Of a stretch of DNA of 64,000 nt, positions 4,993-63,551 are shown piece after piece. Origin of the DNA: Chondrosia reniformis (taxonomy: Eukaryota; Porifera; Demospongiae; Chondrillida; Chondrillidae). The stretch covers positions 4,836,001 through 4,900,000 of the forward strand of contig OX359191.1 in the NCBI GenBank assembly GCA_947172415.1, given 5' to 3'. The position numbers and the translations under genes were made by a program. Below the pieces are notes generated by a model that saw only the letters and a program-made list of their open reading frames with translations, did no database searches and was not told the origin of the DNA. Within the stretch, counting starts at the first letter, position 1. Every line of letters begins with the position of its first letter.

Positions 4993-7727
4993 TAGTTGTA
5001 GGTAGTAGTTTTATAAACTAATTATTTGGATTAATTTTATGTACTCCTTCTATGTACTAGTTTTATGTACCAATTTCTAGTTGTATGTACTAATTGAATG
5101 TACTAGTTGGGTGTTCTAGTTGTACTAATTGTATGAACTAGTTGAATATTCTAGTTGTATATACTAGTTGTATGTACTAGCTGCATGTACTATATATATA
5201 TAGTTGGATTTACTAGTTGTATATACTAGTGTATGTACTATATAGTTGTATGTACCAGTTGTATGTACTAGTTATATGTACTAATTATATGTACTAGTTA
5301 TATGTACTAGTTATATGTACTAGTTGGATGTACTAGTTATGTACTCGTTCTATGTACTAGTTGCATGTACTAATTGTATGCAATCGTTGAATGTACTAGT
5401 TGTGGGTACGAGTTGTATGAACTAGCAGTATATAATAGTTCTATGTGTTCGTTACTAATTGTATTTACTGTGGGTACTATTTGCCTTACCAGTTGTATGT
5501 AATAGTTGAATGTACTAGTTGTATGTATTAGTTGTATGTACTAATAGTACATACTAGTAGTATGTACTAGTTGTATGTACTAGTACTAGTAATATTTACT
5601 AGTTGTAGGTACTAGTTGTATATACTAGTTATAGGTTTTAGTTCAATGTACACGTTACTAGTTCTATGCATTGGTTGTATGTACTAGTTATATGAACTAG
5701 TTTTATGTTCTTGTACTAGTTATATTTACTCTTTGTAGGAACTAGTTGTATGTACTAATTCTTTGTACTAGTTTTATGTACTAGTTACTAGTTGTATGGT
5801 CTGGTTGAATGGACTAATTGTATGTTCTAGTTGAATGTAGTACTTGTATGTATCAGTTTTATATACTAGATGTATGTGTAATGACTGTAGGTAAGTTTAG
5901 TTACTGTTGTAGTGTCATGTGTGATGTAATATTATAATTAGAAGTTAAGATGGCGACAAAACGTGTTGGGAAGCGCTCTCCATTCTAGTGAACTAGACGT
6001 TTCGTACCAGATTGGGCTACAATTCTTCTTTCATTGCACCTATTGTTACCTGACACATCACACGGTGTTTACATATGTTCTAGTAGTATGCACTAGTTAA
6101 ATGTACTCGATGCACGTACTAGTTATAGGTAGTAGTTTTACGGAATAGTTCTGTGTACTAGTTGTAGTTCTATTTTAATGTACTAGTTGTATCTACTATT
6201 TGTGTGTATTATTTTTATGTACTAGTTATATGTGTATGTTCTAGTCATTTCTGTATATACAATTTGTATGTACTACTTTTAAGTACTAGTTGTATGTTAT
6301 AGTTATATGCATTACATTTTTGTACTTGTTGAATGAACTAGTTGTAAGTACTAGTTGGTTGTTTGTACTAGTTTTATGTACTCGTTTCTAGTTGTATATA
6401 TGTATTAGTTTTATGTACTAGTTGTATGTCCTAGCTGTATGTACTAGTCACTAGTTGTATGATCTAGTGGAATGTACTAGTTGTATGTTCTAGTTAAATG
6501 TCGTAGTTGTATATAGTAGTTATATGTTCTAGTTATATTTACTAGTGGTAGGTACCCGTTGTCTGTACTATATAATTGTATGTACTAGATGTATGTTCTA
6601 GTTGCATGTACTAGTTATTTGTACTATTTGTAGTTACTAGTTGTATGTACTAGTTTTATGTACTAGTTCAATGTAATAGTTGTATGTACTATTTGTATGT
6701 ACTAGTTATATTGACTAGTTGTATGAACTAGTTGTATGTACTAGTTGTATGTACTAGTTGTATCTAGTTATATGTAGTAGTTGAATGTACTAGTTGTAGG
6801 TTCTAGTCCCAGTTATACTAGGTACTAGGTAGGTACTAGTTGTATGTCCTAGTTGTATGTACTAGTTGTTTGTACAACTAACTAGTTGTATGTACTAGTA
6901 ACTAGTTGCATGTACTAGTAACTAGTTGTATGTACTAGTTGTATGAACTAGTATTATGTACTAGTAGCTAGTTGTATGTACTAGTTGTAGGAACTAGTTG
7001 TATGTACTAGTAACTAGTTGTATGTACTAGTTGGGTGTACTAGTTGGGTGTACTAGTTGTAAGTACTAGTTGTATGAATATTTTGTGTATGTGCTAGTTG
7101 CAGGTTCTAGTACTAGTTATACTAGGCACTAGGTAGGTAATAGTTGAATGTAGTAGTTGTCTGTACTTTTTTATGTATTAGTTTTATATACCAGTTGTGA
7201 GTATTAGTTGTATGCACTACCTGTATATACTAATTGTATGTACTAGTTGTAAATACTAGTTGTATGTACTACTTGTATGTACTAGGTATATGTACTAGTT
7301 GAATGTACTAGCTGTATGTACTAGTTGTATGTTCTAGTATTAGTTAGAGTAGGTCCTAGGTAGGTACTAGTTGTATGTACTAGTTGTATGTACTAGTTGC
7401 ATTTACTAGCTGTAATCCTAGTTTAAAGTTCTAGAACTAGTTATAGTAGGTCCTAAGTAGGTATAAGTTGTGCGTACTAGTTGTTTGTATTAGTTGAATG
7501 TGCAAGTTTTATGTAGTAGTTTTATATAGAAGTTGTATGCCCTAGTACTAGGTATAGTGACTAGTTGAATATACTACTTGTATGTACTATTTATATGTAC
7601 TATTTGTATGTACTAGAAATGTACCAGTTGTATGTACTAGTTGTGTAAACTTGTTGAATGTACTTGTTACTTGTTTTATGTACTGGTTATATATACTTGG
7701 TGTATGTATTAGTTATATTTACTTGTA
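4993..7727 (+). repeat. 13-bp satellite, block 1
   Basis: Degenerate tandem units close to TACTAGTTGTATG fill this stretch. Each carries the palindromes ACTAGT and GTAC. Unit length is mostly 13 bp with 11- to 14-bp variants. A composite landmark (TAGGTACTAGGTAGGTACTAG type) recurs at about 6810, 7110, 7345 and 7440. There is one non-satellite island at about 5890-6072. I see no gene. Confidence 0.95.
5890..6072. other. Non-satellite island, possible small MITE
   Basis: About 180 bp of unique sequence breaks the satellite. A 9-bp inverted pair, GTGTGATGT (5919-5927) and ACATCACAC (6055-6063), lies near its ends. The match is short and no target duplication is clear, so a MITE origin is only suggested. 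Confidence 0.35.
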
Positions 7728-9451: not shown

Positions 9452-12431
9452 TTATTACTTGTAAACAATGTGATGTACAGTATGTAGGAGAAACCTCTCA
9501 GATGCTTAGGAGTAGAATGAACAACCATAGGATTAGTACCGAAGGTTTTAAGCCACTGTATCTTTACAATCACTTTAATTCTGATAACCATAGTTTTGAT
9601 GTTGCTTTGATTATGCCCATAGAACAGATACCTGAAACACCTAATTCTACCAGCCTCAGACTACTGAGAGAAGCATTCTGGTACAAGGAACTCTGCTCTA
9701 TTTACCCATATGGACTTAACGATAACATTAAAGCCGTAGGCAATATTTCAAAACTTAAAAAAGAAATCATTGTATAGAACCTTTTTAATCGCTTATCTCA
9801 TAAAAGACGGCATCGGCGCTCCAATCTAAAATCGACAGGCAGTAGTAATAACGCTGCCTACAACCCTGAATGGCTCAAAGAACGACTACCACTTTACAAG
9901 AACATGGGCTTTCTACCCCAGAAACACCTTTTCTGCTTAGACTTATGCTAATGATTAAAGACATTATTAAAGCCCGCGCTTCAGCCAGCCTTCTTAAACA
10001 CCCAACAAAAACGACAAGTCCAGAAGGGTTTCTTAAAATCGTGTTTCATAATAAAGGTATAGAAAAAATAGGCCTCTCAGGTATCTTAAACCAAAAGTTA
10101 GTGTTAGAAACTGTCCCACCCTTTATACAAAACAAAGACCACCATGTGTAGTATATAAGTATACCCAACCAATAGGACCTCAAATCTTTAACCTTTCACA
10201 ATCCTCTAAGTCAGATGTCTTTAGAAAACCAGAACCATGTGAGTGTCACAAGTCCCCCTTCATTTACAAGCCCCTAGGCCATGTTTTAACAGGTGATCTA
10301 CGTGTTGTTAGTAACCCAAAACTTAGAAAACTTCTTAAGAAAGGACCAAAATTTAGAGAACCTAATAACTTTAATTGGGTAACTGCTATAAAAATGTGTA
10401 AGGAAGGTCTTAGAAAATATAAGATTACCTGGGCCCGTAGAGAAAATGTATCTACTTCTGTATTTAGTGAGTGGGAAAATGCTGTACTTAAGAAAATCAA
10501 TGATAGGATCTCTAAGCTGTCTAAATCGTATACCAAATCCTCAGTAGCCAAGAAGACCCTTACTTGCCCTAACATTAAGAAATTCTTAGCAGACCTACAT
10601 GATAAGTATGTTATAGCCCCTGCCGATAAGGCCTCTAATAATATAATTTTTATATGTAAGTCCTACTATAGACAAATTAATAATAAAGAACTGGGCAGTA
10701 CCTCCACTTATGCTAAATGTACAGTACAACCCCAACAGTTAATTAGGAAACACATAGATTTCTTTAAACTAGAGAACTTAGAACCTAAACCAGACTGGTG
10801 TAACCTTCCCTCTTTTTACTGGATGCCTAAGCTACATAAGAACCCTTACAGCTACAGATTCATAGCCGCCTCTCACAAATGTACTACCAAACCCCTTTCT
10901 AGATTTCTAAATTCGGCACTCAGACTAATTCTCAAACATTTTAGAGAATACTGCCTAGGTATATATAGGAATACTGGTGTTAATGCCTTTTGGATAGTAG
11001 AAAACTCACTAGAAGTCTTAGATAGTCTTAGGTCTTTACCCACTAGAAAAGCCCAGCTTTTTCTACATTATATACAGCGATCCCCCATAACCTACTTAAG
11101 GATAAGATTACTAACCTAATTCATAGTGCGTATACCTGCAGGAAGTCCCAATATATAGAAGTCCGTCAGGATAAAGCCTTTTGGTCTAACAATGTCTCCA
11201 ATAAAGCAGTCACAGCTGTTCATTTAGTAGAGCTCTTTAATTACCTTATTGACAACATTTATGTATGTGTAGACGGTTCTGTATTTAAGCAATGTGTTGG
11301 TATCCCTATGAGAACTGACTGTGCCCCTGTAGTTGCTAATCTTTTTCTGTTTGCCTATGAGTATGAGTTTATCAAAGACTACTTAAGGATAACATCACCT
11401 TAGCTATTAAATGTTCCAATACTTAAAAGTATATTGATGACCTTTTATGTATTAACAACAAGGATTTTGAACTGTCAATTAGTGATATTTACCCCAAAGA
11501 ACTTATTCTTAAAAACACAAACACCAGCCCTAAAAAATTCCCCATTTTAGACTTAGATATAACCATTACTAACTATCAATTTATCACTAAAGTATATGAT
11601 AAGCGAGAGGACTTTAAATTTGATATAGTAAATTTCCCCCATTTAGATAGTAATATTACTAAAACCCTAGCCTATGGTGTCTTTATTTCACAACTAATTA
11701 GGTATTCTAGAATATGTAGTGACTTCTCCAGTTTTCAGGCTAAAAGTTTGCACTTATGCAGTAGGCTTATTAAGCAGGGTTACAAATACTTCAAGCTAAA
11801 ATCAACCTTTAAAACCTTCCTATCCCGGCAGCCTCTAGTTAGAATCAAGTATAAGCAAAAAGTAGCTAGTATGCTTAAGGACTGTCTTGTGTTACCCCAT
11901 ATTGTGTTACCCCACCTCCAAAGAAATGTTACTACTAGAAGACCTAAGGGTAGACTTATGTTATATGTGATGTGAATATATGTTACGTAATATTTGTGTC
12001 TATAGTTATGCTGAGTCTGTTTTACCTGTACAAGCAAGATTACTAATAGATTTATAATTAATTCATAAAAGTTAATTGGACCTACATTCCTTTCATAAAA
12101 TTAAATTTCATTATGTGTCTTAGTTTACACCTAATTTAACTTTTGGTGCCAAAATGGTGTATATAAGGCCCCTAGATTTAGCATAGAGAGCCAAGGATTC
12201 ACAGAAGATCAAGATAAAGAAAAAGACAAAGACTCCCAGGATCACTGATGAAGGGTGGAATTCCCAGAAACGGCTGCCTGATCCAGTGGAGAAGAAGATG
12301 AAAGAAGAGAAAAGAAGGAAGAAAAGACTACTGTGTCTTCATCTAAAGCTCTCTTTAGGTTAGTTCCCCTATAGGCTCTTTTACAGAATAGGCATATAGC
12401 ATGTAGGAAAATGGTATCTTAGATTTTTCAT
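9452..12431 (+). mobile_element. Naiad-type Penelope-like element, copy A (5'-truncated)
   Basis: The copy begins inside the endonuclease (from about LITCKQCDVQYVGET) and runs through the CxC linker (TGTGAGTGT at 10238-10246, residues CECH), the RT region and the 3' end with a pseudo-LTR. The RT region holds APADKASNNI, FYWMPKLHKNPYSYRFIAAS and GIYRNTGVNAFWIVENS. The endonuclease precedes the RT, which is the permuted order. It ends at TTTTTCAT, exactly where LINE sequence resumes. Several breaks interrupt the frame. It is about 95% identical by eye to copy B over shared parts. Confidence 0.85.
12233..12291 (+). ncRNA. Hammerhead ribozyme-like fold in copy A pseudo-LTR
   Basis: The core CTGATGA (12245-12251) and GAAAC (12267-12271) are present. 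Stem I pairs GGATCA with TGATCC perfectly, and an outer CTCC/GGAG pair is kept. The cleavage triplet reads GCC where other copies have GTC, so this copy is probably inactive. Confidence 0.55.
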
Positions 12432-14284: not shown

Positions 14285-14472
14285 GGGTGGAATTCCCAGA
14301 AACGGCTGTCTGACCCATTGGAGAAGAAGATGAAAGAAGGGATAAGAAGGAAGAAGGAAGAAAAGACTCCTGTATCTTCATCTAAAGCTCTCTTTAGGTT
14401 TAGTTCCCCTGTAGGCTCTTTTTACAGAATAGGCATATAGCATGTAGGAAAATGGTATTTTGGATTTTTCAT
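14285..14472 (+). repeat. Left pseudo-LTR of copy B (partial)
   Basis: GGGTGGAATTCCCAGAAAC onward matches 17513-17700 base for base apart from a few changes. It begins at the stem II part of the hammerhead-like fold and ends at the same TTTTTCAT that ends every Naiad copy in the window. Confidence 0.85.
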
Positions 14473-14687
14473 GTGTTTACTTAGCCTCATGTTATTCCCT
14501 GGTGGCTGTTGAGCCATTGTTGCCTTTTAATTGCCCCGGCTACATATAATAGGTTAAGTCTCTGTGGACTAGCTTGTCTAGTCCTTGACCCATTTCCAAA
14601 CATGACAAGTACAAAGTATAGAGATATAGAATACCGGCTGGGAGGTCGCCCGGGTTAACAAGCTCCCCGTCATTAGGTAAAGGTAGG

Positions 14688-15305
14688 GTGCCTGGTGATG
14701 AAGAGTTAGCTAACTCTCCCTCATCTATAGGTAGAGGGGTGCCTATTGGTGGGCAAGCTAGCCCCTCACTAGTTAAGAAGTGTAGCAATAAGCGGTGTAA
14801 AACATGTCCCACTTTAGTTACGGGCCCTACTTTTAAGAGTTCAGTTACAGGCAGGACCTATCAAGTCCGTAGCCCTTGTGGTCCCCTAGAATGTCAGAGT
14901 AGGAATGTTGTGTATCTTATTACTTGTAAACAATGTGATGTGCAGTATGTAGGAGAAACCTCTCAAATGCTTAGGAGTAGAATGAACAACCATAGGACTA
15001 GTACCAAAGGTTTTAAGCCACTGTATCTTTACAATCACTTTAATTCTGATAACCATAGTTTTGATGTTGCTCTGATTATGCCCAAAGAACAGATACTTGA
15101 GACACCTAATTCTACTAGCCTTAGACTACTGAGAGAAGCGTTCTGGTACAAAGAAATCTGCTCCATTTACCCATATGGACTTAACGATAACATTAAAGCC
15201 GTAGGCAATATTTCAAGAAATAGAAATCATCGTATGGAACCTTTTCAATCGCTTATCTCATTAAAGACGGCATCGGCGCTCCAATCTAAAATCGACAGGC
15301 AGTAG
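14688..15305 (+). CDS. GIY-YIG endonuclease with N-terminal zinc finger (Naiad ORF, N-terminal part)
   Basis: The frame is 205 residues. After a weak N-terminus come CSNKRCKTCPTL (cysteines of the CCHH-type finger, residues about 32-43), a TGRTYQVRSP strand and the GIY-YIG core VVYLITCKQCDVQYVGET (about 77-94). The helix LRSRMNNHR follows (arginine about 99), then LRLLREAFWYKEICSIYPYGLND with the likely catalytic glutamate. In Penelope-like elements this domain nicks DNA to prime reverse transcription. Canonical elements carry it at the C-terminus, whereas here it precedes the RT. The start at 14688 is the first plausible one in the track; a start further upstream cannot be excluded. Confidence 0.8.
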   Translation: MPGDEELANSPSSIGRGVPIGGQASPSLVKKCSNKRCKTCPTLVTGPTFKSSVTGRTYQVRSPCGPLECQSRNVVYLITCKQCDVQYVGETSQMLRSRMNNHRTSTKGFKPLYLYNHFNSDNHSFDVALIMPKEQILETPNSTSLRLLREAFWYKEICSIYPYGLNDNIKAVGNISRNRNHRMEPFQSLISLKTASALQSKIDRQ

Positions 15306-15363: not shown

Positions 15364-17243
15364 GTGGGCTTTCTAGCCAAACTTAAACGCGATACTTTTG
15401 CATTACAAGCTCGACACCTTCATCGTTTGTTAAACTCGGTACAATGTCTCATCGATACCCCAGAAACACCTTTTCTGCTTAGACTTATGCTAATGATTAA
15501 AGACATTATTAAAGCCCGCGCTTCAGCCAGCCTTCTTAAACACCCAACAAAAACGACAAGTCCAGAAGGGTTTCTTAAAATCGTGTTTCATAATGAAGGT
15601 ATAGAAAAAATAGGCCTCTCAGGTATCTTAAACCAAAAGTTAGTGTTAGAAACTGTCCCACCCTTTATACAAAACAAAGACCACCATGTGTAGTATATAA
15701 GTATACCCAACCAATAGGACCTCAAATCTTTAACCTTTCACAATCCTCTAAGTCAGATGTCTTTAGAAAACCAGAACCATGTGAGTGTCACAAGTCCCCC
15801 TTCATTTACAAGCCCCTAGGCCATGTTTTAACAGGTGATCTACGTGTTGTTAGTAACCCAAAACTTAGAAAACTTCTTAAGAAAGGACCAAAATTTAGAG
15901 AACCTAATAACTTTAATTGGGTAACTGCTATAAAAATGTGTAAGGAAGGTCTTAGAAAATATAAGATTACCTGGGCCCGTAGAGAAAATGTATCTACTTC
16001 TGTATTTAGTGAGTGGGAAAATGCTGTACTTAAGAAAATCAATGATAGGATCTCTAAGCTGTCTAAATCGTATACCAAAACCTCAGTTGCCAAGAAGACC
16101 CTTACTTGTCCTAAAATTAAGAAATTCTTAGCAGACCTACATGATAAGTATGTTATAGCCCCTGCCGATAAGGCCTCTAATAATATAATATTCATATGTA
16201 ATTCCTACTATAGACAAATTATTAATGAAGAACTAGGCAGTACCTCCACTTATGCTAAATGTACAGTAGAACCCCAACAGTTAATTAGGAAACACATAGA
16301 TTTCTTAAAACTAGAGAACTTAGAACCTAAATCAGACTGGTGTAACCTTCCCTCTTTTTACTGGATGCCTAAGCTACATAAGAACCCTTACAGCTACAGA
16401 TTCATAGTGCCTATACCTGTAGGAAGTCCCAAAATATAAAGGTCTGTCAGGCTAAACCTTTTGGTCTAACAATGTCTCCAATAAAGCAGTCACAGCTGTT
16501 CATTTAGTAGAGCTCTTTAATTACCTTATTGACAACATTTATGTTTGTGTAGACGGTTTTGTATTTAAGCAATGTGTTGGTATCCCTATGGGTACTGACT
16601 GTGCCCTTGTAGTTGCTAATCTTTTTCTGTTTGCCTATGAGTATGAGTTTATGAAAGGACTACTTAAGGATAACATCACCTTAGCTATTAAATTTTCCAA
16701 TACTTAAAAGTATATTGATGACCATTTATGTATTAACATCAAGGATTTTGAACTGTCAATTAGTGATATTTACCCCAAAGAACTTATTCTTAAAAAGACA
16801 AACACGAGCCCTAAAAATCCCCCTTTTTAGACTTAGATATAACCATTACTAACTATCAATTTATAACTAAAGTATATGATAAGCGAGAGGACTTTAAATT
16901 TGATATAGTAAATTTTCCCCATTTAGATGATTATATTCCTAATACCCTAGCCTATGGTGTCTTTATTTCACAACTAATTAGGTATTCCAGAATATGTAGT
17001 GACTTCTCCAGTTTTCAGGCTAAAAATTTGCAGTTATGCAGTAGGTTTATTAAGAAGGGTTACAAATACTTTAAGCTAAAATCAACCTTTAAAACCTTCC
17101 TATCCCGGCAGCCTCTAGTTAGAATCAAGTATAAGCAAAAAGTAGCTAGTATGCTTAAGGACTGTCTTGTGTTACCCCATATTGTGTTACCCCACCTCCA
17201 AAGAAATGTTACTCCTAGAAGATTTAAGGGTAGACTTGCGTAA
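15364..17243 (+). pseudogene. Linker, CxC motif and Penelope-type reverse transcriptase of copy B
   Basis: The stretch carries helical linker sequence (15364-15693), CECHKSPFIYKPLGHVLTGD (CxC motif at 15780-15788) and KGPKFREPNNFNWV. RT N-terminal motifs follow (APADKASNNIIF at about 16158; FYWMPKLHKNPYSYRFI at about 16355). Further on are VGIPMGTDCA (about 16578) and the YIDD region (about 16711). The RT is the telomerase-related Penelope type. Compared with copies A and E the middle of the RT is shorter, and the frame is broken several times. Confidence 0.75.
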
Positions 17244-17492
17244 TATGTCCTACTTGTATCTACAGTTATGCTGAGTCTGTTTTACCTGTACAAGCAAGAT
17301 TACTAATAGATTTATAATTAATTCATAAAAGTTAATTGGACCTACATTCCTTTCATAAAATTAAATTGCATCATGTGTCTTAGTTAACACCTTATTTAAA
17401 TTTTTGCGCCAAAATAGTGTATATAAGGCCCCTAGATTTAGCATAGAGAGCCAAGAATTCACAGAAGATCAAGATAAAGAAAAAGACAAAGA

Positions 17493-17551
17493 CTCCCAGG
17501 ATCACTGATGAAGGGTAGAATTCCCAGAAACGGCTGTCTGACCCAGTGGAG
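17493..17551 (+). ncRNA. Hammerhead ribozyme-like fold, copy B right pseudo-LTR
   Basis: Core: CTGATGA (17505-17511), GAAA (17527-17530) and the cleavage triplet GTC (17536-17538). Stem II is GGG/CCC with a 7-nt loop. Stem III is two base pairs with loop GGCT. Stem I is GGATCA (17499-17504) with TGACCC (17539-17544), one A-C mismatch, then an internal loop CA/AGT and an outer CTCC/GGAG pair. One flaw is an A opposite A at the base of stem II, where hammerheads usually have G-C. The type would be type I, as in pseudo-LTRs of canonical Penelope elements. Confidence 0.65.
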
Positions 17552-17700
17552 AAGAAGATGAAAGAAGGGAAAAGAAGGAAGGAGGAAGAAAAGACTCCTG
17601 TATTTTCATCTAAAGCTCTCTTTAGGTTTAGTTCCTCTATAGGCTCTTTTTACAGAATAGGCATATAGCATGTAGGAAAATGGTATCTTAGATTTTTCAT

Positions 17701-18231: not shown

Positions 18232-19295
18232 TGTAGTTGCTAATCTTTTTCTGTTTGCCTATGAGTATGAGTTTATGAAAGGACTACTTAAGGATAACAT
18301 CACCTTAGCTATTAAATTTTCCAATACTTATAGGTATATTGATGACCTTTTATGTATTAACAACAAGGATTTTGAACTGTCAATTAGTGATATTTACCCC
18401 AAAGAACTTATTCTTAAAAAGACAAATACCACCCCTAAAAAATCCCCCTTTTTATACTTAGATATAACCATTACTAACAATCAATTTATCACTAAAGTAT
18501 ATGATAAGCGAGAGGACTTTAAATTTGATATAGTAAATTTCTCCCATTTAGATAGTAATATTACTAATACCCTAGCCTATGGTGTCTTTATTTCACAACT
18601 AATTAGGTATTCCAGAATATGTAGTGACTTCTCCAGTTTTCTGGCCAAAAGTTTGCAGTTATGCAGTAGGCTTATTAAGCAGGGTTAAAAAGACTTTAAG
18701 CTAAAATCAACCTTTAAAACCTTCCTATCCCGGCAGCCTCTAGTTAGAATCAAGCATAAGGAAAAGTAGCTAGTATGCTTAAGGACTGTCTTGTGTTACC
18801 CCATATTGTGTTACCCCACCTCCAAAGAAATGTTACTACTAGAAGATCTAAGGGTAGACTTGCGTAATATGTCCTACTTGTATCTACAGTTATGCTGAGT
18901 CTGTTTTACCTGTACAAGCAAGATTACTAATAGATTTATAATTAATTCATAAAAGTTAATTGGACCTACATTCCTTTCATAAAATTAAATTGCATCATGT
19001 GTCTTAGTTAACACCTTATTTAACTTTTTGCGCCAAAATAGTGTATATAAGGCCCCTAGATTTAGCATAGAGAGCCAAGAATTCACAAAGACAAAGACTC
19101 CCAGGATCACTGATGAAGGGTGGAATTCCCAGAAATGGCCCAGTGGAGAAGAAGATGAAAGAAGGAAAAGAAGGAAGAAGAAAGAAAGACTCCTGTGTCT
19201 TCATCTAAAGCTCTCTTTAGGTTTAGTTCCCCTATAGGCTCTTTTTACAGAATAGGCATATAGCATGTAGGAAAATGGTATCTTAGATTTTTCAT
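18232..19295 (+). mobile_element. Naiad-type element, copy C (5'-truncated)
   Basis: It starts within the RT at about TGTAGTTGCTAATC and runs to the shared end TTTTTCAT. The open stretch 18232-18687 holds YRYIDDLLCINNKDFELS (YIDD catalytic motif) and IYPKELILKKTN. Then come LYLDITITNNQFITKVYDKR and FISQLIRYSRICSDF, all typical of the Penelope-type RT palm and thumb. This is the best-preserved RT palm in the window. The hammerhead-like region (about 19098-19147) has lost its cleavage triplet. Confidence 0.85.
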
Positions 19296-20101: not shown

Positions 20102-20462
20102 ATGAAAAATCTAAGATACCATTTTCCTACATGCTATATGCCTATTCTGTAAAAAGAGCCTATAGGGGAACTAAACCTAAAGAGAGCTTTAGATGAAGAT
20201 ACAGGAGTCTTTTCTTCCTTCTTTTCCCTTCTTTCATCTTCTTCTCCACTGGGTCAGACAGCCGTTTCTGGGAATTCCACCCTTCATCAGTGATCCAAGG
20301 AGTCTTTGTCTTTTTCTTTATCTTGACCTTCTGTGAATCCTTGGCTCTCTATGCTAAATCTAGGGGCCTTATATACACTATTTTGGCGGCAAAAGTTAAA
20401 TAAGGTGTTAACTAAGACACATGATGATATTTAATTTTATGAAAGGAATGTAGGTCCAATTA
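20102..20462 (-). mobile_element. Naiad-type element, copy D (3' end only)
   Basis: A minus-strand fragment: its 3' tip (ATGAAAAATCTAAGATACC on the plus strand) is at 20102, and it is cut off at about 20462 within the 3' leader. It keeps the pseudo-LTR and the hammerhead-like fold and carries no coding part. Confidence 0.9.
20244..20302 (-). ncRNA. Hammerhead ribozyme-like fold, copy D
   Basis: Read on the minus strand: CTCC, GGATCA, CTGATGA, GGG/CCC stem II, GAAAC, GGCT, GTC, TGACCC, GGAG. All core elements and the cleavage triplet match copy B, in a copy with no coding sequence. Confidence 0.65.
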
Positions 20463-22535
20463 CCTAGCATGTACTAGTTATATGTACTAGGTGCATTAAC
20501 TAGCTGTATATCCTAATTTTAGGTTCTAGAATTAGTTATAATAGGCCCTAGGTAGGTATACGTTGTATGTACTAGTTGTTTGTACTAGTTGTATGAACAA
20601 GTTTAATCTAGTACTTCTATACAACTAGTAAATACAACTAGTACATACAATTATGTACTATTTGTATGTATACACAAGTTATATGTACTAGTTGTATGTA
20701 CTAGCACTAGTTATATTTACTAGTTGTATGTACTAGTTGTATGTACTAGTTATATGTACTAGTTATATGTACTAGTTGTATGTATTAGAAATGTACCAGT
20801 TGTGTGTATTAGAAATGTACCAAGTTTATGCATTAGAAATGTACCAGTTGTATGTATTAGTTGCATGTACTAGTTGTACGAACTTGTTGTATGTACTATT
20901 TATATGTAATGGTTATATGTAGCAGTTGTGTGTTCTAGTTCTATGTACTAGTTGTAGTACTATATGTATGTACTACTTCTATGTACTAGTTGTAGTGCTA
21001 GGTGTATGTACTAGGTGTATGTACTAGTTGTATGCACTAGTTATAGGTACTAGGTCTTTGTACTAGTTGTTATACGAGTATTATGTACTAGTTGTATGTA
21101 CCATTTATATTTTCTAGTTGTATATTCTAGTTGTACAATCTTGTTGGGTGTAATTGTGACTAGTTGTATATAATAGTTGTATTTACTAGTTGTAAGTTCT
21201 AGTGGTATGTACTCAATTTTATGTAGTAGTTGTATGTTCTAATTGAATGTAAAATTTATATGTACTAGTTGTGTGTTATTGTTGTATGTACAAGGTATAC
21301 TTCCTAGTTGTAGTTATTAGTTGTATGTACTAATTATATTTACTAGTTGTAGTTACTAGTTGAAGGGACTAGTTGTATGGAGTAGTTGCATGTACTACTT
21401 GAATGTACTAGTTATATGTACAAGTTGCATTAACTAACTGTATATCCAAGTTTTAGGTTTAAGTACCAGTTATAGTAGGTCCCAGGTAGATATAAGTTGT
21501 ATGTACTAGTTGTTTGTACTAGTTGAATGTACAGGTTGTATGTACTAGTTGTATGTACAAGTTTTATATGCCAGTTGTATGTACTAGTACTAGTTATATT
21601 TACTAGGTGTATGTACAAGTTGTATGTACTAGTTATATGTACTAGTTGTATGTACTAGAAATGTACCAGTTGTATGTCCTAGTTAGATGCACCAGTTGTA
21701 AGCACTTGTTGTATGTGCTCGTTACTATTTTTATGTACCAGTTATATTTACAAGATGTAGTTGTAGGGACTAGTTGTATATACCAGTTGTATGTACTATT
21801 TATATGTTCTGGTTATATGTAGCAGTTGTGTGTTCTAGTTGTATGTACTAGTTGTGTGTCCCATTTGTATGTACTAGTTGTAGGTTCTAGTACTAGTTTT
21901 ATTAGGTACTAGGTAAGTACTAGTTGTATGTACTATTTGTTTGGACTAGTTGTGTGTACTAGTTCTATGTACTAGTTGTGGGACTAGTTGTATGGACTAG
22001 TTGTATGTGCTATTTATAGGTACTAGTTATCTGTCCATGTACTAGGCATATGGATTTGTTTTATGTACTATTTATATGTACTAGTTGTTAGTACTAGTTG
22101 TACAAACTTGTTCTATGTACTCATTACTAGTTGTATGTAATATTGTATTTACTTGTTGTAAGTTCTAGCGGTATGTACTCAATTGTATGTAATAGTTTAA
22201 TGTACTAGTTGTGTGTAATTGTCGTATATACTAGGTATATTTACTAGTTATAGTTACTAGTTGAAGGGACTAGTTGTATGGACTAGTTATAGGTACTAGT
22301 TATATGTACTAGTTGTATGTGCTATTTATAGGTACTAGTTATATGTATATGTCCTCGGTGTATGTACTAGTTGTATGCACTAGTTATATGTACTAGTTCT
22401 ACGTGGTGGTTGTATGTTGTAGATATGTACCAGTTGTATGCACTAGTTGTATGTTCTAGTTGTTTATACTCTTTCTATGTATTAGTTATAAGTTCTAGTT
22501 GTATGTGACAGGTTCTTACCAGTTGTATGTACTAG
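20463..22535 (+). repeat. 13-bp satellite, block 5
   Basis: Satellite with the TAGGTACTAGGTAGG-type landmark at about 20545, 21475 and 21905, and the ATTTATATGTACTAG landmark several times. It includes a short inverted stretch at 20617-20650. No gene seen. Confidence 0.95.
20617..20650 (-). repeat. Inverted satellite units
   Basis: ACAACTAGTAAATACAACTA and the bases after it are satellite units in reverse orientation within an otherwise plus-oriented block. Confidence 0.7.
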
Positions 22536-22936
22536 TTTTTGGGGCGCCACAGGCGCCCCTATATTCTTTTCAGAAATTATATTAACGTATGGCTTCCTGT
22601 TCGTAGTCTTGTATATATATATATATATATATATATCTGTCAAAAAATGGCGGACGTGCGGCTAGCTTTCGTTTTCTAGCTTAAAATTGGCTTTCTCTTC
22701 TTTAGCGTAGAACATTAAACGAACGAAATGGACTTAAAAACCACCCTTGCTGATACTATGTAACGTAAAGCTTGCGCAAAAACGTTTTCTACGAGATATG
22801 GCCTTGAAAAATTGACGGCCAACAAGATTCAATCGGAAATCGGTTAACCGGATATCTATAAGAACCAGCCAAGTAGTTTGAGTTTACTTAGGGGCGCCTG
22901 GCGCCCCACGAGTTTTTTACACTCGAACTCCTTGTT
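22536..22936 (+). mobile_element. Hairpin-end element, copy 2
   Basis: The left end has the perfect hairpin GGGGCGCC-ACA-GGCGCCCC (22541-22559). The right end has GGGGCGCC-T-GGCGCCCC (22891-22907) inside the outer pair AAGTAGTTTGAGTT and AACTCCTTGTT-type end. The two ends are inverted copies of each other. The middle shares TGGCTTCCTGTT and AAAATGGCGG with the other copies and includes a (TA)n run. No coding capacity. Confidence 0.65.
22612..22636. repeat. (TA)n microsatellite
   Basis: About 12 TA units inside the hairpin-end element. Confidence 0.95.
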
Positions 22937-37139: not shown

Positions 37140-38871
37140 ATGAAAAATCTAAGATACCATTTTCCTACATGCTATATGCCTATTCTGTATAAAGAGCCTA
37201 TAGGGGAACTAAATCTAAAGAGAGCTTTCGATGAAGATACAGGAGTCTTTCTTTCTTCTTCCTTCTTTTCCCTTTTTCCATCTTCTTCTCCATTGGGTCA
37301 GACAGCCGTTTCTGGGAATTCCACCCTTCATCAGTGATCCAGGGAGTTTTTGTCTTTTTCTTTATCTTGATCTTCTGTGAATCCTTATCTCTCTATGCTA
37401 AATCTAGGGGCCTTATATACACCATTTTGGTGCCAAAAGTTAAATAAGGTGTTAACTAAGACACATGATGAAATTTAAATTTATGAAAGGAATGTAGGTC
37501 CAATTAACTTTTATGAATTAATTATAAATCTATTAGTAATCTTGCTTTTACAAGTAAAACAGACTCAGCATAACTATAGACACAAGTAGGACATATTACG
37601 CAAGTCTACCCTTAGATCTTCTAGTAGTAACATTTCTTTGGAGGTGGGGTAACACAATATGGGGTAACACAAGACAGTCCTTAAGCATACTATCTACTTT
37701 TTGCTTATACTTGATTATAACTAGAGGCTGCCGGGATAGGAAGGTTTTAAAGGTTGATTTTAGCTTAAAGTATTTGTAACCCTTCTTAATAAGCCTACTG
37801 CATAACTGCAAACTTTTAGCCTGAAAACTGGAGAAGTCACTACATATTCTAGAATACCTAATTAGTTGTGAAATAAAGACACCATAGGCTGGGGTTTTAG
37901 GGATATTACTATCTAAATGGGAGAAATTTACTATATCAAATTTAAAGTCCTCTCGCTTATCATATACTTTAGTGATAAATTGATTGTTAGTAATGGTTAT
38001 ATCTAAGTCTAAAAAGGGGATTTTTAGGGATGGTATTTGTCTTTTGAAGAATAAGTTCTTTGGGGTAAATATCACTAATTGACAGTTCAAAATCCTTGAT
38101 GTTAATACATAAAAGGTCATCAATATACCTATAAGTATTGGAAAATTTAATAGCTAAGGTGATGTTATCCTTAAGTAGTCCTTTCATAAACTCAACTCAT
38201 AGGCAAACAAAAAATGATAAGCAATTACAGGGGCACAGTCAGTACCCATAGGGACACCTACACATTGCTTAAATACAGAACCGTCTACACATACATAAAT
38301 GTTTTCAATAAGGTAATTAAAGAGCTCTATTAAATGAACAGCTGTGACTGCTTTATTGGAGACATTGTTAGACCAAATGGCTTTATCCTGACAGACTTCT
38401 ATATATTGGGACTTCCTACAGGTATAGGCACTATGAATTAGGTTAGTAATCTTATCTTTAAGTAGGTTATGGGGGATTGCTGTATATAATATAGAAAAAT
38501 CAAAACTAGCTACCTGGGCTTTTCTAGTGGGTATAGACCTAAGACTATCTAAGACTTCTAGTGAGTTTTCTACTATCCAAAAGGCATTAACACCAGTTTT
38601 CTATATATACCTAGGCAGTATTCTCTAAAATGTTTGAGAATATGCTGAGTGCCGAATTTAGAAATCTAGAAAGGGGTTTGGTAGTACATTTGTGAGAGGC
38701 GGCTATGAATCTGTAGCTGTAAGGGTTCTTATGTAGCTTAGGCATCCAGTAAAAAGAGGGAAGGTTACACCAGTCTAGTTTAGGTTCTAAGTTCTCTAGT
38801 TTTAAGAAATCTTTGTGTTTCCTAATTAACTGTTGGGGTTCTACTGTACATTTAGCATAAGTGGAGGTACT
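37140..38871 (-). mobile_element. Naiad-type element, copy E (5'-truncated)
   Basis: On the minus strand it runs from about the CxC-distal RT region (TSTYAKCTVEPQQLIRKH) at 38871 to the shared 3' tip at 37140. It contains DWCNLPSFYWMPKLHKNPYS, the RT middle region missing from copy B, YRYIDDLLCINIKDF, the thumb, and a pseudo-LTR with a hammerhead-like fold. Minus-strand orientation, opposite to copies A-C. Several breaks. Confidence 0.88.
37288..37346 (-). ncRNA. Hammerhead ribozyme-like fold, copy E
   Basis: The minus strand gives CTCC, GGATCA, CTGATGA, GGG/CCC, GAAAC, GGCT, GTC, TGACCC, GGAG, the same arrangement as copies B and D. The internal loop varies (CT/AAT), but both halves of stem I are kept. 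Confidence 0.65.
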
Positions 38872-51560: not shown

Positions 51561-51612
51561 GTTGGTCTTCAAGGTGTCTTCATTTATAGGCATCTTTTCC
51601 CGCCATTTTCAA

Positions 51613-51931
51613 TTACCTCATCAGTGATGTCATCGGTTACATCATTTCCGGAGGAAGGAGAGATGAAGGGAGTATTCATAAAAAAGGGTTTCCAACCACT
51701 TCTTAGTACAATTCCTTGATCTAAGTTCATTCTCACCTGACATTGTTGGATCTTCAGGGCTTCTTTAATCCTTCTTCTGTACCAGTTCTCTTCCCTCTCC
51801 ACCATTCTGGCTTGGCTCCACTCAATTGGATGGCCAGTTTTTAGGGTGTGAACAGCTAAGCCATTGTTCACATCCCCCATCCTGACAGCACGTTTGTGCT
51901 TCGCCATCCTGACTTTCAACGTTCTTCCTGT
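51613..51931 (-). pseudogene. GIY-YIG endonuclease C-terminal part (canonical Penelope type)
   Basis: The minus-strand frame covers TGRTLKVRMAKHKRAVRMGD onward, with the conserved NNGLAVH, GHPIEW and YRRRIKEALKI stretches and the NLDQG tail. The methionine and first 18 residues called upstream lie in the inverted arm and are not native. The N-terminal GIY-YIG strand and the RT are absent. Confidence 0.7.
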
Positions 51932-51984
51932 TTGAAAATGGCGGGAAAAGATGCCTATAAATGAAGACACCTTGAAGACCAACA

Positions 51985-52030
51985 TCAGTCACTGAAGAAG
52001 ACCCCCAGGGTCGAAACGTTTGGCAGAGAG
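51985..52030 (+). ncRNA. Hammerhead-like core in right arm
   Basis: CTGAAGA (51992-51998, allowed at the variable core position), stem II GACCC-CCA-GGGTC, then GAAAC (52013-52017). The GTC cleavage triplet is not in place, so it is a remnant. The left arm holds its inverse at about 51526-51560. Confidence 0.5.
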
Positions 52031-62621: not shown

Positions 62622-63551
62622 TTAGATATCTTTAAACTTGAAAGAATTGAGATATGACCACTGAGGCACTAGATTGAGTGTAGGTTGAGGAATGTCAGTG
62701 CGCAACTTCCTTCCCATGAGCAATTCCGCTGGACTAAGTCCACACCAGGGGAAAGGTGTTGTCCTATAGCTAAGTAGAGCTATGTAAGGGTCAGCTGACT
62801 TATCTAACAGGGATTTGACTGTCTTCACTGATTTCTCGGCTAACCCATTGCTTTGAGGGTAATGTGGGCTGCTTGTGTTGTGCTGAAATCTATATTGATC
62901 TGCAAATTTTTGCATTTCTTTAGAACTGTATTGTGGACCATTGTCTGAAACAAGGGCAGCAGGGATTCCATGTCGTGAAAATAAAGTCTTGAGACTAGCA
63001 ATGACCTCCTTGGATGTAGTCCCGTTCATCTTTTGAACTTCAATGTATCTTGAAAAGTAATCTACAACAAGCAGGTAAACTTTTCCGTGAAGCTCAAAGA
63101 GATCTGTGCCTATTTTCTCCCATGGAAATTTAGGTAATGGGGACAAAATCATGGGTTCCCTATGAGGTGTAGCAGCTGCCATACAAGTAGGACAAGCTTT
63201 GATATAATCTTCCACCTGCCGAGATACCCCTGGCCACCAAACTGATGAATTAACACGAAGGCGACGTTTTTGAATGCCTTGGTGACCACAATGAATCTTC
63301 TCTAAGATCTGTTTTTGCATGATTTTGGGAATCACTATGTGTCCCTCATAAAGAAGAAGATTGTCAGAAAGGGTAAGGGCATTTCGCTCTGGCCAAAACC
63401 TGAGAGTTTTCCCCTTTAATCTATCACGACTAGGCCATCCATTTTTGCAAAAGGTGATCAGTTGAGAACAGGTTTCATCTGCATGTTGGGCCTCCTTGTA
63501 TGTCTCCAATGTAGACCTTTTTGCTGGTAGGAAAGATGTCATTGACTCCAT
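62622..63551 (-). CDS. Ty3/Gypsy integrase region (fossil element)
   Basis: A 309-residue frame. In order: an HHCC zinc-binding part (HCGHQGIQKRRLRVNSSVWW followed by CPTCMA, residues about 87-125); the catalytic core with the first Asp in GTDLFELHG, the second in SDNGPQYSS and the Glu region in NGLAEKSVKT; then SYRTTPFPWCGLSPAELLMG, a typical Gypsy integrase stretch. In a live element it inserts the DNA copy into the host genome. Confidence 0.9.
   Translation of the reverse strand: MESMTSFLPAKRSTLETYKEAQHADETCSQLITFCKNGWPSRDRLKGKTLRFWPERNALTLSDNLLLYEGHIVIPKIMQKQILEKIHCGHQGIQKRRLRVNSSVWWPGVSRQVEDYIKACPTCMAAATPHREPMILSPLPKFPWEKIGTDLFELHGKVYLLVVDYFSRYIEVQKMNGTTSKEVIASLKTLFSRHGIPAALVSDNGPQYSSKEMQKFADQYRFQHNTSSPHYPQSNGLAEKSVKTVKSLLDKSADPYIALLSYRTTPFPWCGLSPAELLMGRKLRTDIPQPTLNLVPQWSYLNSFKFKDI

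Follow-up and report, generated by a model that had tools for sequence, protein, structure and literature searches.

The locus raises the question whether a hammerhead-like motif in the pseudo-LTR of a Penelope-like element with an N-terminal endonuclease is a self-cleaving ribozyme, and what its cleavage would do to the RNA of the element. That hammerheads occur in Penelope-like pseudo-LTRs is known already; Cervera and de la Pena in 2014 and Lunse et al. in 2017 are said to have described minimal type I hammerheads in elements with a C-terminal endonuclease. Penelope-like elements with an N-terminal endonuclease were reportedly described by Craig et al. in 2021 as lacking canonical hammerheads. 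The motif was read in the window, i.e., the whole stretch of 64,000 nucleotides that was analysed, and was followed through the 117.4-Mb assembly of 15 contigs to which the window belongs. The features of the window are collected in Table 1.

Table 1. Coordinates of the Naiad-type element, its hammerhead-like motif and further motif copies in the window.
Feature	Position	Strand	Remarks
Frame with GIY-YIG endonuclease domain	14622-15305	+	PF01541, 24.3 bits (cut-off 22.6); upstream of RT
Linker with CxC (PCECHKSPF) and RT start	15597-16439	+	RT continues to 17243 in broken frames
TATA box-like TATATAAG of pseudo-LTR promoter	17420-17427	+	putative role, from position
Insertion 5'-end cluster, likely transcription start	17448-17457	+	28-37 nt below TATA box start
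Hammerhead motif, copy B, type I layout	17493-17551	+	sequence layout, descriptor, model R2 match
Outer stem I	17493-17496 with 17548-17551	+	copy B
Inner stem I, 5' half GGATCA	17499-17504	+	partner TGACCC at 17539-17544; 5/6 pairs, A.C mismatch
Core box CTGATGA	17505-17511	+	copy B
Stem II	17512-17526	+	A10.1, GGG/CCC, 7-nt loop, A11.1; A.A at base
GAAA box, 2-bp stem III (AC/GT), GGCT loop, triplet GTC	17527-17538	+	
Predicted cut	17538/17539	+	after GTC (GUC/UGACCC)
First post-cut base through common 3' end TTTTTCAT	17539-17700	+	some insertions start at 17539
Copy A	12233-12291 (CTGATGA box 12245)	+	perfect inner stem I; GCC replaces GTC, dead
Copy C	19098-19148 (CTGATGA 19110)	+	stem III and triplet deleted
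Copy D	20244-20302 (box at 20290)	-	intact layout
Copy E	37288-37346 (box at 37334)	-	intact layout
Copy F, left pseudo-LTR piece of copy-B element	14285-14472	+	begins at stem II GGG
Piece G	46724-46644		3' part only

The order of the parts, with the RT assigned by its motifs only, is that of an N-terminal-endonuclease Penelope-like element (Naiad). The GIY-YIG domain lies N-terminal to the RT frames on the same strand, and the linker contains the CxC motif that Craig et al. reportedly found in Naiads. The RT was named by eye from the motifs YIDDL and GTDCAP, which were read in other window copies; a Pfam search of the window frames gave no RT match. In the pseudo-LTR arrangement the ORF is flanked by piece F upstream and copy B downstream, both on the same strand and with the same 3' end. 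The motif layout, the GIY-YIG domain and this pseudo-LTR order support an earlier sequence-only reading, which had placed a hammerhead-type motif in the pseudo-LTR of a Penelope-like element with an N-terminal GIY-YIG domain. All seven window copies run to TTTTTCAT and diverge thereafter; this common 3' end is a property of the seven window copies, the other junction loci having been picked by their tail, and the 3' ends in a sample of 80 hits coincide with the query end and were not counted as evidence. A diverged 13-bp satellite (TACTAGTTGTATG) forms long arrays at 5077-7723, 20562-22537, 38960-59237 and elsewhere in the window and adjoins the ends of several of the Naiad-type window copies.

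The layout of the motif is real, as confirmed in the window sequence. In copy B its parts follow each other in the order CTCC-CA-GGATCA / CTGATGA / A-GGG-TAGAATT-CCC-A / GAAA-C-GGCT-GTC / TGACCC-AGT-GGAG, with the CUGANGA and GAAA boxes and the NUH triplet in the correct order for a type I hammerhead. Three stems surround the core, of which stem I is open, stem II has 3 bp and stem III has 2 bp; the inner part of stem I has five of its six pairs in young copies and all six in the old copies L041 (GGGTCA/TGGCCC) and L040 (GGGCCA/TGGCCC). A descriptor demanding at least five of six inner stem I pairs, CTGANGA, a stem II of 3 bp or more in which the first position may be mismatched, GAAA, a 2-bp stem III and NUH matches copies B, D and E and no other place in the window, which bears out the claim that these three share the full layout; it gave no match on either strand of 300 simulated 64-kb windows (first-order Markov). 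The remaining copies have lost parts of the motif. The C to T change noticed earlier in copy A does complete the inner stem I (GGATCA/TGATCC, all pairs), but the same copy carries a change of GTC to GCC, overlooked at the time, which removes the cleavage triplet and the U of stem III. The deletion in copy C has its 3' edge exactly at the predicted cut, between CCCAGAAA and TGGCCC.

In hammerheads stem II begins, almost without known exception, with the pair G10.1-C11.1. This pair is absent from the Naiad motif, which has A.A in all 32 aligned rows (rows fetched by core match), and a search for the G-C form found a base other than A at position 10.1 in only eight genome places with an exact GGG stem. 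The earlier warning about an A-A opposition was thus correct and applies to nearly the whole family, and by its sequence the motif is to be classed as a hammerhead variant with A.A in place of G10.1-C11.1, not as a canonical hammerhead. The Rfam hammerhead model (RF00163), proposed earlier as a check, gave no match to the Naiad motif up to an E value of 10, whether in the window, in a slice of 161 nt or at five old-copy loci, while two retrozyme hammerheads of the same genome were detected in the same test with 34.6 and 37.1 bits. This permissive search covered, in all, the window, the slice and eight loci without detecting a Naiad hammerhead, and the route was abandoned.

The second check proposed, covariation among genome copies, gave a weak signal. 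The alignment holds 32 of 39 distinct motif rows, seven being omitted for broken spacing; 89.6% of its cells pair, and two-sided changes occur in 3 of 15 pairs (5 of 480 cells), with a score reached by 5 of 500 shuffles among these close relatives. The inner stem I pair 9-50 is unpaired in 21 of the 32 rows. The covariation of the stems in these closely related sequences thus appears to give modest, weak support, and on the Rfam and covariation criteria alone the hammerhead claim would look doubtful. One explanation in keeping with this is that the motif descends from a working ribozyme and that activity was lost throughout the present family when A.A took the place of G-C, the layout being kept by close relatedness; the near-universal A.A, the blindness of Rfam to the motif, the loss of one stem I pair in young copies and the death of copies A and C would all fit such decay.

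The motif was also compared with hammerheads of the same genome. The canonical pattern CTGATGAG..CGAAAC..GTC occurs at 246 genome sites (control, 3), some of them in retrozyme-like tandem at 359 bp (C4:3837454-3838531), and the two sites tested are the Rfam hammerheads mentioned above. Most of 100 canonical-pattern matches listed end in the same ACAGCTGTC. Old Naiad copies share GAAACAGCTGTC with canonical-pattern sites, stem III and the cleavage triplet being identical. A model built from eight retrozyme hammerheads of this genome (model R2) detects Naiad sites in every one of the ten loci to which it was applied, the highest score being that of L040 (27.8 bits) and the lowest that of L032 (12.4); L041 and a second site in L050 both reach 25.9 bits, and the weaker Naiad copies lie at 12.4-14.4 bits. 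In the window it gives 18.8-18.9 bits for copies B, D and E (B, 18.9 at 17499-17544) and 15.4 for copy A; as a probable chance match in an integrase gene (63236-63283) also scores 18.9 bits, the same as copy B, the window scores are not decisive by themselves. Conversely, the Naiad model R1 finds 13 of the 19 retrozyme-pattern sites given, with E values of about 0.0006 to 0.3.

These likenesses bear on the explanation that a purine-rich 5' leader resembles a hammerhead by chance and was amplified with the transposon. The motif does represent a single sequence lineage, with weak covariation across its 32 close copies, as this explanation would have it. Against it stand the empty result of the descriptor in the simulated windows, the identity of stem III and triplet in old copies with those of the canonical hammerheads of the same genome, and the peak of insertion 5' ends at the predicted bond that is described below; we regard a chance likeness as most improbable. 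The common stem III and triplet suggest, moreover, that the ribozyme may have been exchanged between Naiad and retrozyme-like hammerheads. Shared sequence, which would point to direct kinship or mobilisation, was looked for by comparing the Naiad pseudo-LTR with 30 retrozyme-pattern loci; the idea was dropped, as the comparison gave only a neighbouring Naiad copy in L087 and, in L064, a weak match of 70 bases. In five of the canonical-pattern matches listed, positions 10.1 and 11.1 form a compensated A-U pair. Another hammerhead form, seen at L070, L074 and C4:4239418, has a long stem III (CTGATGAGCCCTGGCATTGGGCGAAACAGGTAGAACCTGTC); the best Rfam match of L070 is the type III model, with 25.2 bits, below threshold.

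Folded as a hammerhead, L041 has a calculated energy of -11.5 kcal/mol; the corresponding values are -11.3 for the retrozyme L064 and -7.4 for young copies. The MFE of the monomer lies below that of the hammerhead fold in each of the four sequences tested, and no hammerhead fold was predicted for the monomer of copy B (MFE -13.6 versus -7.4 kcal/mol, z +0.55); monomer folding therefore fails as support for a hammerhead in copy B, its MFE structure being a different one. Two L041 strands, folded together without constraint, give a double hammerhead as their MFE structure, in which stem III (8 bp) and both stems I are formed between the strands and both stems II are intact. Two young strands prefer a different pairing in the unconstrained two-strand fold. 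In the natural axolotl hammerhead HHR_Amex2 (PMC7229834), helix II has a U.U mismatch at its base and helix III has 2 bp; this ribozyme cleaves weakly alone and better as a dimer. Penelope-like pseudo-LTR hammerheads have likewise been proposed to act as dimers (PMC7761336).

The retrotransposon carrying the motif is very abundant in the genome. A 26-nt core (CTGATGAAGGGTGGAATTCCCAGAAA), searched with up to two mismatches, has 1520 + 1478 = 2998 genome matches (reversed control, 0), which represent pseudo-LTR copies and not complete elements, and the 3' tail, with up to three mismatches, has 2389. Abundance on this scale allows the 5' ends of insertions to be compared. In a sample of 80 distinct hits, 15 begin at 17448-17457 and 26 reach the query start; in a second sample, 6 of 32 start at -91 to -87 relative to the cut. 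The region 17448-17457 is likely to be the transcription start, which places the hammerhead about 40-100 nt inside the transcript.

Another class of insertions begins at the predicted cut and supplies the strongest evidence for the ribozyme. Satellite followed within 30 nt by CCCAGTGGAGAAGAAG was found at four places, three of which start at TGACCC, the first post-cut base, two of these three showing identical flank. A genome-wide filter, in which each of the three bases before TGRCCCAGTGGAGAAGAAG must differ from GTC, returned 86 places; it misses flanks with a base in common with GTC, for example that of L134, which starts at the cut, and also catches internal changes. Thirty-eight of the 86 were identified, comprising 36 fetched loci, chosen for variety and not randomly, window copy C and L018. 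In 28 of the 38 the cut site joins unrelated host DNA, with 26 distinct flanks, and ten were not counted because of internal changes or element-derived flanks (L018, L097, L104, which is ambiguous, L105, L108, L110, L172, L176, L178 and copy C). Eight of the 86 places are one repeat array, and about ten places on C2 resemble duplicates of one insertion, to judge from three sampled flanks (L163-L165). The host junctions divide into 13 that start with TGACCC and 15 that start with TGGCCC; an inactive motif would not yield them in both kinds of copies, and the decay of the whole family considered above is for this reason unlikely.

By the same kind of filter, neighbouring TGs behave differently. 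The TG four bases upstream (-4) gave nine places, six of them host junctions, and the TG of CTGATGA gave 17, of which 13, including L054 and L139, were read and four are host junctions (L152 is ambiguous). Most frequent are starts flanked by ACA, of which there are 34 at the cut (about 25 if the C2 group is counted once), two at -4 and four at the core TG. The Poisson probability of at least 26 junctions is about 1e-9 if about six are expected and 3e-6 if nine are, values that assume independence and comparable anchors and serve as a guide only. Two further controls were set aside. The total for the TG at +8 (83 places, three ACA-flanked) stems from a 12-nt anchor swamped by unrelated matches, its reversed control giving 24 with a 12-member repeat group, and speaks neither for nor against a peak at the cut; at -7 (eight places) the filter shuts out CAT flanks, and the count was not used.

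The flanks at cut-site junctions are often TACA or CAT, which suggests that microhomology with TG takes part in the 5' joint; where flank and element share a T, the first base of the insertion is uncertain by one. This observation, together with the further 5' ends at -7 and -4 and the unreadable control at +8, could be taken to mean that the peak is produced without a ribozyme, by RT stops at RNA structure, by TG microhomology with an ACATG-like target or by a host nuclease. Microhomology alone, however, cannot account for the preference of the cut-site TG over the two neighbouring TGs tested, which yield nine and 17 places as opposed to 86 and two and four ACA-flanked starts as opposed to 34 (about 25 when the ten C2 places are taken as a single event). 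A structural stop would be expected at the 3' base of stem I, and not after stem I has been copied. A peak of non-ribozyme origin is accordingly judged quite unlikely. The 5' ends of insertions, a genomic observation, thus peak at the bond predicted for cleavage after NUH, and their distribution, which had no part in the earlier reading, supports the hammerhead independently and at near single-nucleotide resolution. The insertions that begin at the predicted cut are likely a fossil trace of the ribozyme working in living cells.

The size of this class was estimated from a sample that is independent of the 5' end, consisting of the 79 exact-tail places listed on contig C1 below 9.16 Mb, of which the 32 without a nearby exact core were read. 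Among these 32, a cut-site start is found in L134 only, or in two loci if the ambiguous L136 (the same place as L104) is included; two start at -4, two at -7 and six at the transcription start. Cut-site starts thus make up a few per cent of copies, a minority. Some shortened Naiad copies have a telomere-like upstream flank, namely L132 (TTAGGG repeats) and L111 (TTTAGG), and the first post-cut bases (AATTGGCCCAGTGGAGAAGAAG) also occur in a local array, partly with 25-bp spacing, at C2:756961-757401.

Taken together, the motif is probably a weak and likely dimeric type I hammerhead in the Naiad transcript, which cuts a minority of the RNA in vivo, the cut RNA still being copied into the genome. 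According to this reading, the transcript of the Naiad-type Penelope-like element would bear a weakened type I hammerhead in its 5' part, and the pseudo-LTR RNA would cut itself behind GUC. It would probably do so best as a pair of hammerheads joined via their near-palindromic stem III (ACAGCUGU/ACGGCUGU). The 3' product, starting with UGACCC or UGGCCC, would keep its 3' signals and could still serve as template for target-primed reverse transcription, in which the reverse transcriptase runs off the new 5' end and leaves an insertion that starts at the cut site. Most insertions would come from uncut or otherwise shortened RNA, the uncut transcripts giving rise to the start-site class. Internal deletions with a 3' edge at the cut (copy C, L108, L110) might have arisen when the reverse transcriptase jumped from this same RNA end. 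The more far-reaching statement, that Naiad elements have a working A.A hammerhead and that a small, sharp class of insertions owes its 5' end to cleavage by it in vivo, with the ribozyme perhaps exchanged with retrozyme-like hammerheads, has in our estimate an even chance of being right.

The Naiad motif resembles the hammerheads of C-terminal-endonuclease Penelope-like elements in its pseudo-LTR location, type I layout, short stem III and proposed dimers. It differs from them in its N-terminal-endonuclease host, in having an A.A opposition instead of a lone A, and in its two-part stem I. Its stem III consists of 2 bp and a tetraloop (8 bp in a predicted dimer), whereas that of minimal Penelope-like hammerheads is ACGU. 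In PAc, the Poseidon element of Anolis carolinensis, a hammerhead lies at the border of pseudo-LTR and ORF; according to its report (PMC11167929), it did not cleave without added protein, its mutation left in vitro insertion unchanged, and the authors saw no RNA reads with either end at the cut. The Naiad hammerhead occupies the same element border, and the one of PAc is weak by itself. PAc has, however, a C-terminal endonuclease, and the Naiad cut is marked by genomic 5' ends.

Among metazoan retrozyme type I hammerheads (PMC7229834), HHR_Amex2, with its U.U, resembles the Naiad motif in having a mismatch at the base of helix II, and many of the canonical-pattern sites listed in the Naiad-bearing genome have the GAAACAGCUGUC of old Naiad copies. 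Retrozymes are unlike Naiads in being small, non-coding and tandem, with G10.1-C11.1 and, in the two tested, a positive Rfam match, and the 30 loci compared share no flanks beyond core and stem III, except for the weak match in L064. LINE-type elements such as R2 have ribozymes at their 5' ends. A comparable outcome, self-cleavage that defines the 5' end of inserted copies, is proposed for Naiad, although the folds are unrelated and only a minority of Naiad copies start at the cut. For the ribozymes of LINE-type elements a role in 5'-end processing is given in a 2020 review (PMC7761336), which calls the in vivo activity and role of Penelope-like hammerheads a mystery.

A literature search, which did not include the key Naiad and Penelope-hammerhead papers, found no paper joining Naiad, Penelope-like elements and hammerheads. 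Within this limited search, the occurrence of a hammerhead in an element with an N-terminal endonuclease, an A.A variant shared throughout the family and a footprint of cleavage in the genome appear to be new. Through insertions that start at the predicted scissile bond, genomic copies would act as a record of RNA ends at the time of copying. If the preferred reading is true, hammerheads extend to the N-terminal-endonuclease branch, a mismatch is tolerated at a sensitive pair, and a cheap, genome-only test of ribozyme activity is at hand for any retroelement; for one element, it would also answer what Penelope hammerheads do to RNA.

Hammerhead-like relics of another Penelope type were observed at 51992 (+) and 51552 (-) in the window, near a GIY-YIG-like frame at 51584-51988 (-) that was named by eye and is without a Pfam match, and also at L026, L027, L053 and L056. 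They read, for example, CTGAAGA/CTGAGGA-AGACCC..GGGTC-GAAAC, and likewise carry an extra A before stem II (CTGAAGA-A-GACCC for the two in the window).
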